NCBI GenBank assembly: GCA_002224055.1
Contig: AZLU01000155.1
Span: 1 to 42,505, forward strand
DNA: 42,505 nt
Direction of reading: 5' to 3'
DNA from: Pezizomycotina sp. ARF18
Taxonomy: Eukaryota > Ascomycota
In this document: one piece after another, positions 36,907 to 40,552 of the stretch
Layout: each line of letters starts with the position of its first letter
Position numbering within the stretch: the first letter of the stretch is position 1
Translations under genes and position numbers: made by a program
Notes under the pieces: generated by a model
Database searches by the model: none
What the model was told of the DNA's origin: nothing
What the model saw: only the letters and a program-made list of their open reading frames with translations

Positions 36907-36911
36907 ATGTG
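36907..36911 (+). other. 5-nt first coding exon (ATGTG)
   Basis: The exon is ATGTG, followed by a strong donor GTACGT at 36912. The acceptor ACATAG ends at 37046, with CTAAC branch sequence about 30 nt upstream. Joining gives ATG TGT AAA CAT GTT, i.e. MCKHV, the expected family N-terminus. Confidence 0.85.
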
Positions 36912-37610
36912 GTACGTTTTAAAAAAGAATTTTAAGGCGAGGTTCCGAGCTCTCGGTTTCGTCTCCCTATTTTCTTCTACAGTGTCGCAAGGCCAGCGGC
37001 AGCTCAGCCTAAGCTAACGACGACGCTTCTTTCGACAACAACATAGTAAACATGTTCTGAACGCTCAAGTCTCCATCCGGTCTGCATGCTGTTAGTTCCA
37101 AAAAAAGCTTCTCTCTCCACGGAACCTTTTTTTTTTTTTCCTTAGGCCTCGAAGAGTTTTCGTGCTAACCACGCGACACCATCCAGGTCGGAAATGGTTC
37201 GATTGCGCCGAATGTCACGCCGAGCAGGAGGACCACCCAATGCTGAAGCGCTTCGAGCTTGTGTTCGCGTGCAAAAAGTGCAAGAAGGCCTTCCGGAAGG
37301 ACGCCAGGGACTTTGACGAGTCGGACGAGTACTGCCCGCACTGCGATAACCACTTCGTCCTCGATGCCGTATCGCCGAAACCGGTGCTCAAGGTGGAAGG
37401 GAGGATATACGGAAGGATTCGAGGTACAGTCTTTCTATTGAAGCTCTAACATGCCTTTTTTTTTTTTTTTTTACTTTATTCGGATTTCGGGGTTCTCTGT
37501 GCTAACGTAACCTACTTTCCAACTTTAGAATTGTCAAGGACGAGCGGATAAAAGGTTTCGACGACGAGTCGATGTACGATGTCGCGAATACGGCAGATCG
37601 ACTTGGTTGA
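36907..37610 (+). CDS. CHY zinc-finger protein
   Basis: This small cysteine/histidine-rich zinc protein is related to the CHY-type finger of yeast Hot13. Exons: 36907-36911 (ATGTG), 37047-37090, 37187-37430 and from about 37530 to the TGA at 37608-37610. Spliced product: MCKHVLNAQVSIRSACCRKW, FDCAECHAEQEDHPMLKRFE, LVFACKKCKKAFRKDARDFD and ESDEYCPHCDNHFVLDA, then VEGEDIRKDSR, IVKDERIKGFDDESMYDVAN and TADRLG. At least ten Cys and four His sit at family spacing. The 5-nt first exon supplies M and two bases of Cys2; without it the gene has no start in frame. One G is missing in the GGG run at about 37399-37401. Poly(T) tracts lie before the second and third acceptors. Function is not established; Hot13 acts in mitochondrial intermembrane-space oxidative folding, but this protein is not shown to. 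Confidence 0.9.
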
Positions 37611-37918: not shown

Positions 37919-39259
37919 TCAGGAATGGTATATCAATATTTTTGCTTCGTCGACATTATCTTGGGTGCTCGTCCCCGTTGCTCCCGCACCTCTTCCTTGC
38001 TTCTTCTTCGCCGCTTCCGCCTGCTTCTCTGCTTCGATTTCCTTGACGTAGCCTTCTATCGCTCGACACCCAGCCACTAAATAAGACGAATATGTTAGCT
38101 ACCGTATAATTACATTCTTCATTAAAGCCTCAGTGAGAGAATTCTTACCTCAACTTTCTGGCCCGGTGCCATAAGAGCAATCTCTATATTCTTCGCTCCC
38201 GTCTGCACAACCTCGAGCAGCGACTTGACCGTAAGCTTCAGGGTCTCCTCGCGGTCCATCTCCTCCTTGTAGTTACGCTCCAGGAACTCTCGGACGGTCT
38301 TGCTAGATCTGCCAATAGCATTCGCTTTCCTAATAAAACCCCACCGCAATTTCTCACATCAGCTACCGACCTTCAAGTTTTCCGAGAGTGAGGTCTCCAT
38401 CCTAGCAAGCAAGCAGCAAAACTCACCACGCCGATATATACCCGAAGGCTCAGTCTGGTACAGCCTGGGCTGCTTGTCGTTGGCGTCGAAGCCGATGATC
38501 AGAGTACTGATGCCGAACGGCCTAACGCCTCCGCTCTGCGTGTACCGCTGCTGGACGCCGGCGACGTACTTTCGTGATGTACTCCACCGTGACGGGTCCT
38601 CGACGGTGAGCCGGTGCGACTGGGCCTCGACGCGGGCACGGTCTATGAGGATGCGGGCGTCGGCGTTGAGGCCGGCGAAGGCGAGGCAGACGTGCTTGTC
38701 GACGAGGCCGATCTTCGAAGGGGTGATGCGGGTGTCTTGGAGCTTCACGGCCGAGCGCTTCTCGCAGCCGAGTACGACGACGTCTTTGCCCTTGACGCCG
38801 ACGGCGCAGGTACCTATATAGAGTAAAGAAGAGAAGTTTAGCCGTGAGTCTTTGAAAGTGTTGGGCTTGCTGGGGATGAATCGCTATCTCCTGTACATCG
38901 GGTGGTAGCTGTGCATTGTGTGTGCTTGTTGTAAAGGCATTCGTGTAATAAAGCAATGGAATGGAGCTCCAAGATTGAGGGTTCGATCGTTTTTGATAGT
39001 TCTCGTACCTCTCTTTACTGCTTCGAGAGCATATTCAACCTGGAAGACGTGACCGTCGGGACTGTAGATAAGAAGAGAAACCGTTAACAAAAAAATCCTT
39101 CCTAGTACGTAGCGTTAAAGAAAGCCGGAGGATGTCTGAATATGCACCTGAAGACTGTTTGCGAGTAAAGATGTTAGCCTAGCTACTTCTTGTCTAGATA
39201 GATAGGATGAATAGCTCGACTAGTATACCTGAAAGCGCGCGGTCGTATGAGCCAGCCAT
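37919..39259 (-). CDS. PRE6: 20S proteasome subunit alpha-4 (PSMA7/Pre6)
   Basis: This is an alpha-ring subunit of the 20S proteasome. Exon 1 (39229-39259) [10 protein letters not shown]; exon 2 (39148-39154, 7 nt); exon 3 (to 39061) [19 protein letters not shown], the alpha-type signature; then [99 protein letters not shown] and [20 protein letters not shown]. The Lys-rich tail [15 protein letters not shown] marks the alpha-4 class. The end is KILIYHS with stop at 37919-37921. About 255 aa matches the family. Conserved PVTVEYITK is read as PSRWSTSRK because of two compensating indels near 38570 and 38595. A base is also missing near 38432 (IYSAW). It shares a divergent promoter with thymidylate kinase. 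Confidence 0.97.
39148..39154 (-). other. 7-nt microexon in proteasome alpha-4
   Basis: On the minus strand TCTTCAG is flanked by an acceptor (CAAACAG) and a donor (GTGCAT). Joining exon 1 ending TCA G, TC TTC AG and T CCC GAC gives [13 protein letters not shown], the near-invariant proteasome alpha N-terminus. Skipping it would lose VFS and shift the frame. Confidence 0.88.
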
Positions 39260-39608
39260 TATTCTGATCGTCAAGCACAAGGACTTCTTCTATTTGTAGT
39301 TTTTATAGAGGTCGTATTGGCTTGACTTCGGTCGTTATATTTGCTCGTCGTAGGAAATAGCAGCTCAAAAAGAGGTGGGTTTGGTTTGGTTTGGGTGAGC
39401 TTTTTCGGTGGAGGACGCGCGGAAGTTTAGTAGTGTTGGACAGCAAAGATTATGTAGTGGGGCACGTTTTTTGGCTGCAATTTTTTAATTAGAGCTCGAA
39501 GCTTTAAATAACGTGGGAGCTATCTATCCACTTATCTATCTGCACGACACCTCACATTCGACATATATCAGCTACACATTTTCGACAATTTTCACTGCAT
39601 TGCTTCAG
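39260..39608. promoter_or_regulatory. Divergent promoter, proteasome alpha-4 / thymidylate kinase
   Basis: About 350 bp separates the proteasome start from the thymidylate kinase leader. It contains a GTGGGTTTGGTTTGGTTTGG repeat (about 39375-39397) and GGACGCGCGG (about 39413), one base from the MCB ACGCGT element used by MBF for S-phase genes. No GGTGGCAAA proteasome element was found. Regulation is inferred. Confidence 0.45.
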
Positions 39609-39676
39609 GTAACTATCGAAACACTCTAGAACATACTGAAACTCCAATTCTAATCTCTAAGTTAAAAAAATTCTAG
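39609..39676 (+). other. 5'UTR intron ending exactly at the thymidylate kinase ATG
   Basis: GTAACT donor after TTCAG, and an acceptor TTCTAG directly adjoining ATG at 39677; 68 nt. The intron carries no coding sequence, so its removal is supported by signals only. Confidence 0.5.
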
Positions 39677-40552
39677 ATGTCATCTACATCAGCTATGAGA
39701 GGCGCGCTGATCGCCGTTGAGGGTCTTGATAGAGCTGGGAAGTCTACACAATGTAGCTTGCTCGTGGACCGATTAAAAGCTGAAGGCGTCCCCGTCGTCC
39801 TTCAGAAGTTTCCAGGTGCCTAACTCATTGGATAAACAAAAATTGCGCAATCACCTCGGAGCTATTAGCTTCATCCAGGTTGCCAGGGAGAAAAAGAAAG
39901 CGTAAAATTTAACAGGGTTTTGCGTTCCCTGGGGTCAGGATAGATAGGACCACGCAGATCGGGCTCATGATCAACTCCTACTTGCAAAATGCGGAAAACC
40001 TGGACGACAGGGCTATACACTTGCTGTTTCTGCGAACCGGTGGGAAGCATGGTAATACTTGCCATTTTTTCGATCCAACGTATATCCGTTTTTCCTTGCG
40101 GGTCGCAAAAAACCGAGGCTAATGGGATGATATATTATTTTATATTCTTTCTTGCTCATATATATTTGAAACGCTAGCGATAAAATAAAATCCTCATCGC
40201 TTCCGGGACGACGTCGTCATGGACCGGTACGTCTATTCCGGTATCGTCTTTTCCGCCGCCAAGGAAGCGAACCTACCCATCGAATGGTGCCGGGCGCCAG
40301 ACATTGGCTTGCCGCGGCCGGACGCTGTGATCTTCCTGTCTATATCGCAGGAAGAAGCCGCGAAGCGGGCGGGCTTTGGAGACGAAAGGTACGAAAACAA
40401 AGAGATGCAGGATAAGGTGCGGAAGCTATTCGAGTCTTAAGTAAAGATCCCAGGACGAAGGGGACTGGTGCGTTGTAGATGCTGCGGAGAGCCTGGAGCA
40501 GGTTTCAGAGGCGGTATGGAAAGGCGTCGAGGTGGGAGAAAGAGGGCTGTGA
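39677..40552 (+). CDS. CDC8: Thymidylate kinase (dTMP kinase)
   Basis: This enzyme phosphorylates dTMP to dTDP for DNA synthesis. Exon 1 (39677-39815): MSSTSAMRGALIAVEGLDRA, GKSTQCSLLVDRLKAEGVPV and VLQKFP, with P-loop GLDRAGKST. Exon 2 (39944-40051): DRTTQIGLMINSYLQNAENL, DDRAIHLLF then SANRWEA after correcting one missing T. Exon 3 (from 40178): SGTT, VVMDRYVYSGIVFSAAKEAN (DR motif), LPIEWCRAPDIGLPRPDAVI (substrate-specificity loop and DxGLPxPD), RAGFGDERYENKEMQDKVRK (lid region) and DWCVVDAAESLEQVSEAVWK. The stop at 40550-40552 follows GERGL. About 215 aa, as usual. Frameshifts near 40031, 40213 and 40437-40460. Acceptor 39943 and donor 39816 restore FP|DRTT exactly. Possibly cell-cycle controlled through the near-MCB upstream. 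Confidence 0.95.

Follow-up and report, generated by a model that had tools for sequence, protein, structure and literature searches.

The locus discussed here raises the question of how the N-terminal signature of a proteasome alpha subunit is encoded when the stretch TCTTCAG, only seven bases long, appears to stand between two introns. Either these bases form an exon in their own right, or the signature is reached through some other arrangement of introns and exons. With high confidence, the reading that accounts best for the DNA is that two ordinary U2-type introns lie seven bases apart and split the codons for VFS in the N-terminal signature of alpha-4. The assignment of TCTTCAG as a real, frame-essential internal microexon is well supported by the sequence, and its inclusion is likely to be constitutive.

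Layout and identity of the alpha-4 gene

The window, meaning the whole stretch of DNA that was analysed (42,505 nucleotides), comprises positions 1-42505 of contig 155 in a 46.4-Mb assembly of Pezizomycotina sp. ARF18 with 408 contigs. A fungal source is indicated by the alpha-4 protein, whose best solved relatives are yeast PRE6 chains, and the intron style (short, with GCTAAC-like branch sites) suggests an ascomycete. It carries a proteasome alpha-4 (PRE6-type) gene on the minus strand, running from 39259 down to approximately 37900, with the following elements:

39229..39259, minus strand: exon 1, coding part; 31 nt, ten codons and the first base of a Val codon, ungapped to PRE6 from residue 4
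39155..39228, minus strand: intron 1; 74 nt, CAG/GTATAC...AAACAG, with a branch-site-like GCTAAC 20 nt before the acceptor
39148..39154, minus strand: putative microexon TCTTCAG; 7 nt, phase 1 in and phase 2 out
39062..39147, minus strand: intron 2; 86 nt, CAG/GTGCAT...CTACAG, with a branch-site-like GTTAAC 23 nt before the acceptor
39009..39061, minus strand: exon 3; 53 nt, the last Ser base, 17 residues and the first base of the next codon, with a PF10584 match
38814..39008, minus strand: intron 3; 195 nt, GTACGA...ATATAG
38427..38813, minus strand: exon 4 (proteasome fold); PF00227 match, three apparent frame switches, the third near the end of the exon
38149..38329, minus strand: exon 5; 60 residues
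37900..38076, minus strand: last exon, approximate; begins WLGVER, one apparent frame switch

The preliminary description had read CAAACAG, TCTTCAG and GTGCAT in direct succession on the minus strand, together with a 31-nt first exon. This arrangement is indeed present, with the 7-mer at 39154-39148, the first coding exon at 39259-39229 and the next exon starting at 39061. TCTTCAG contributes the remainder of the Val codon, the Phe codon and two Ser bases of VFS, and the three-exon model joins as ...GCGCTTTCAG-TCTTCAG-TCCCGAC.... The further statement that no frame correction is needed holds for the first ~310 coding bases, microexon included, which contain no frame break, but fails beyond them, where four apparent frame switches occur (three in exon 4 and one in the last exon).

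The identity of the gene was examined by a search with the first 104 residues only against solved proteasome chains. The best matches are to yeast alpha type-4/PRE6 (phmmer, E 2e-52), followed by mammalian alpha type-7 (E about 4e-42), which we take to be the orthologue of alpha-4/PRE6, and by yeast alpha-5 (about 5e-23). The best match among solved chains and the presence of the alpha N-terminal signature (PF10584, PF00227) place the gene in the alpha-4/PRE6 group. As had been proposed, the joined exons match the alpha-subunit N-terminus: the phmmer alignment to yeast PRE6 spans all three exons and crosses both microexon junctions without a gap, and the three-exon model scores 49.5 bits against PF10584 over all 23 positions (1-23).

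Upstream of alpha-4, a gene whose translation, inspected by eye, looks thymidylate-kinase-like starts near 39677 on the plus strand and is divergent from alpha-4; the pair has a common upstream region of ~420 bp (39259-39677).

Alternative exon structures

To compare the three-exon model with other ways of reading the same bases, all GT-AG structures from the ATG to the end of exon 3 were enumerated. Each could contain a single additional exon no longer than 120 nt, or none, and introns shorter than 40 nt were disallowed; the first donor had to lie no more than 60 nt from the ATG, and exon 3 could begin behind its own acceptor AG or any earlier one. Under these limits 11 of 68 structures are open, and the model with the 7-nt exon ranks at the top, with 24/26 residues identical to yeast PRE6 and a BLOSUM62 score of 131, while the runner-up reaches 19/26 and 97; the score takes no gaps and is anchored to exon 3, and penalises rivals with inserted residues even if their flanks match. 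When introns of at least 30 nt are admitted, the number of open structures rises to 15 of 114 and the winner is unchanged. The runner-up (22/26, score 113) then has DKN where the winner has VFS. Chance was assessed by dinucleotide-preserving shuffling, in which the interval kept its outer donor (39228) and outer acceptor (39061) in place and the 40-nt lower limit on introns applied. A frame-restoring AG-exon-GT of 1-40 nt whose protein score was at least as high arose in 48 of 40,000 shuffles, a count that leaves splice-site quality aside.

The frame gives the seven bases their weight. Without TCTTCAG, as upon skipping, the product stops early after 25 residues, and the three retention forms (intron 1, intron 2, both together) all stop early as well. 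Taken out as one intron, 39228-39062 would carry off the seven coding bases and throw the following exon out of frame. At 7 nt, with coding exons on either side, TCTTCAG has the size and position of an internal microexon, for which the upper size limit ranges from 15 to 51 nt across the literature, as far as the available text of the sources goes.

A structure that would dispense with any small extra exon while keeping the frame joins exon 1 through a single intron to a longer exon 3 starting at 39101. It is the sole open single-intron structure, whether the lower limit for introns is set at 40 or 30 nt, and is one that a gene finder might draw. It keeps the residues that flank the insertion (YDRALS, and SPDG onwards), and its PF00227 score is nearly equal to that of the three-exon model (70.1 versus 70.5 bits). 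However, it swaps the VF of the alpha signature for 13 unrelated residues, its match to PF10584 drops to 36.9 bits over positions 7-23, compared to 49.5 bits over 1-23, and its ungapped identity to yeast PRE6 is 19/26 instead of 24/26. Moreover, it offers no account of why TCTTCAG stands with splice borders at the correct place and in the correct frame. A single intron is thus very unlikely, and a 7-nt internal microexon between two introns, as originally proposed, is favoured by its frame, its donor scores and its protein match. Given the frequent frame breaks in the assembly, a base-level error near the microexon junctions is conceivable.

Splicing of the microexon and integrity of the gene

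Both introns carry the signals expected of introns flanking an exon, namely GTATAC...GCTAAC...CAG and GTGCAT...GTTAAC...CAG. A self-trained genome-wide splice model was dropped, the long open frames being too few for a useful coding model: 242,505 bases contained 36 open frames of at least 250 codons, or 25 after removal of overlaps. It gave way to 13 introns derived by hand, and the donor score was trained on 11 of these. This donor matrix is a small, hand-picked set from the same genome, derived from protein joints in alpha-4, alpha-6, alpha-3, alpha-7 and a CHY zinc-finger gene; an alpha-1 intron seen by eye was left out. The donors of introns 1 and 2, with 7.05 and 5.59, outscore the six other GTs evaluated in the interval (8 in all), and both fall inside the leave-one-out range of the 11 comparison introns (0.01 to 8.64). 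In a 200-kb sample, both strands included, 1.8% of GTs score as high as the donor of intron 1 and 5.7% as high as that of intron 2. Both introns have A at donor position +5 instead of the commoner G, which is also absent from 3 of the 11 comparison introns. The branch-site-like motif discriminates poorly: of the 13 introns, 12 carry one within their last 50 nt, and only intron 3 of alpha-4 does not.

By analogy with related fungi, we infer that the microexon is spliced by intron definition. In Schizosaccharomyces pombe and filamentous ascomycetes, splice sites are described as pairing across short introns (PMC6616335, available text). Each of the two short introns would then be recognised across itself, and no spliceosome would have to assemble over the 7-nt exon. 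An intron-defining spliceosome should need no minimum exon length, so that closely spaced short introns could be removed in succession. Removal is probably sequential, since two spliceosomes would hardly fit around seven bases simultaneously. No hint of a special splicing factor was seen in the sequence. Because the skipped form and each retained form truncate the protein, inclusion is likely constitutive, and the microexon would be present in essentially all productive mRNA.

As a sub-case of this explanation, the microexon might be regulated, with skipping acting as an off switch that tunes proteasome levels. Skipping would give a frameshift and an early stop, presumably followed by nonsense-mediated decay, although the same frame shift would follow from skipping every internal exon with a length not divisible by three. 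The alpha-4 subunit is part of an essential complex required at all times, which counts against regulated skipping. A precedent is available in the 20-nt microexon of Trichoderma virens Xlr2 (PMC11121469, available text). In alpha-4, however, no sign of regulation was seen in the sequence, and both microexon donors are normal compared to the small intron set of the genome. The chance that the exon serves as a switch is accordingly slim.

The preferred reading of a constitutively included microexon also has to accommodate the four apparent frame switches further downstream. Apparent single-base frame breaks were also observed in other proteasome genes, such as those on C20 (alpha-6), C131 and C15 (names by eye). 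A search at the DNA level with 401 bases of alpha-4 found no second copy in the genome, and one scan of the viral contigs found no alpha-4 orthologue. The pattern of breaks suggests base-level insertion/deletion errors of the assembly, not gene decay. A decayed gene, in which the four switches mark a pseudogene and the microexon is not in use, is very unlikely given the lack of a second copy by DNA, the comparable breaks in other proteasome genes, the continuation of proteasome-like protein in another frame past each break (read by eye) and the fact that assembly base errors account for all frame breaks together. The other matches of the proteasome-fold search were identified in part, and a diverged second copy of alpha-4 might conceivably be among them.

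Origin of the introns and comparison with known systems

Once the exons are joined, the coding sequence reads TTCAG^TC TTCAG^TC across the two intron positions (marked by ^): one 7-base unit stands twice in direct succession, with an intron at the equivalent place in each copy. Microexon skipping thereby equals the loss of one such unit. Introns favour CAG^ sites, and the repeat may merely reflect this preference. The residues encoded by the microexon are part of a signature common to yeast PRE6 and PF10584, so that the seven bases probably predate the introns, which would have been inserted on either side of them. A more elaborate scenario holds that intron 2 was inserted, for example by reverse splicing, into the neighbouring copy of the intron 1 target, creating the microexon, which was then kept as a skip-prone switch of proteasome supply; this is improbable. 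Introns 1 and 2 show no likeness beyond chance, with a local score of 14 that was reached by 444 of 1000 shuffles, a comparison in which an old insertion would not show. An introner-type repeated intron was rejected, neither intron having a match other than itself in a genome search at E up to 1, which passes over simple repeats and very frequent words. A stwintron was rejected as well, since both introns have complete signals and none of these is interrupted by the neighbouring intron.

Introns in or near the N-terminal signature were also seen by eye in alpha-6 (interrupting the Phe codon), alpha-3 (before TTIF), alpha-7 (before VEY) and alpha-1 (within VEY), all genes named by eye, each at a different place; in alpha-7 a further intron seems to precede the signature by a few codons. 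No microexon was seen at the N terminus of alpha-1, -3, -6 or -7 in this inspection by eye, which did not cover alpha-2 and alpha-5.

The preliminary description had counted two extreme microexons within 2.3 kb, the second being a "CHY exon" that is taken here to be ATGTG at 36907-36911. The CHY zinc-finger gene (named by eye) occupies 36907-37449 on the plus strand, and begins as follows:

36907-36911, plus strand: ATGTG, the five coding bases held by the first exon
36912-37046, plus strand: intron, 135 nt
37047-37090, plus strand: exon, 44 nt

The ATGTG adjoins a long A run and lies 2.2 kb from the alpha-4 microexon. Since the first exon, which ends in these five coding bases, would also include 5' UTR, it is not an internal microexon. 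The suggestion that the spliceosome of this organism handles tiny exons routinely does not follow from the one internal microexon that is left.

An obligatory 7-nt exon in a core proteasome gene would be a clean natural test of fungal intron-definition splicing, and, if kept in relatives, would help to date both intron insertions. It is likely to be misannotated: a gene finder could settle on the single-intron structure, which is open, and read mapping that takes no account of the microexon would presumably show a 7-base insertion at the junction.

Tuber melanosporum is a filamentous ascomycete with exons that are smaller still. Its NACHT-ankyrin genes contain 3-bp mini-exons (Iotti et al. 2012, as cited in the available text of PMC3689799 and PMC9815663). 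These mini-exons are codon-sized and alternatively spliced, and occur by the dozens in a gene superfamily, where they serve diversification (PMC3689799, PMC9815663). Unlike them, the alpha-4 microexon is a single exon in a core gene, with a length that is not a multiple of three. In Xlr2 of Trichoderma virens, also a filamentous ascomycete, a microexon near the start of the coding region likewise changes the frame and was overlooked by the public gene model (PMC11121469); it is longer (20 nt) and glucose-switched, whereas in alpha-4 no sign of regulation was seen. According to the available text of the same source, experimental tests of fungal microexons had previously been confined to Schizosaccharomyces pombe. 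Among fungi, exons down to 6 bp are also described in Phanerochaete chrysosporium P450 genes, but these belong to a basidiomycete gene family (PMC1184071, available text). The stwintrons of filamentous ascomycetes resemble the alpha-4 case in that two introns are almost superposed in an ascomycete gene; in a stwintron, however, a splice signal is split by the inner intron, (PMC6616335, available text), while in alpha-4 each intron has its full set of signals and the two are separated by a coding exon. The mention of microexons in the available text of PMC3990503 concerns read mapping only. Among the matches listed from open-licence literature, as represented by titles and abstract openings, none describes a microexon in a fungal proteasome gene.

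The ultra-short microexons of plants are like the alpha-4 case in being internal, at most 15 nt long and placed between two introns (PMC8831610, available text). They include microexons of 1 nt in APC11 and VPS55, and most of the ultra-short ones are not annotated (PMC8831610). The plant microexons are shown by RNA-seq, RT-PCR and cross-species conservation (PMC8831610), while that of alpha-4 is predicted from sequence. The alpha-4 microexon belongs to an established class of exons, within which its size is unusually small; its mechanism is not new, and the understanding of splicing is unchanged by it.
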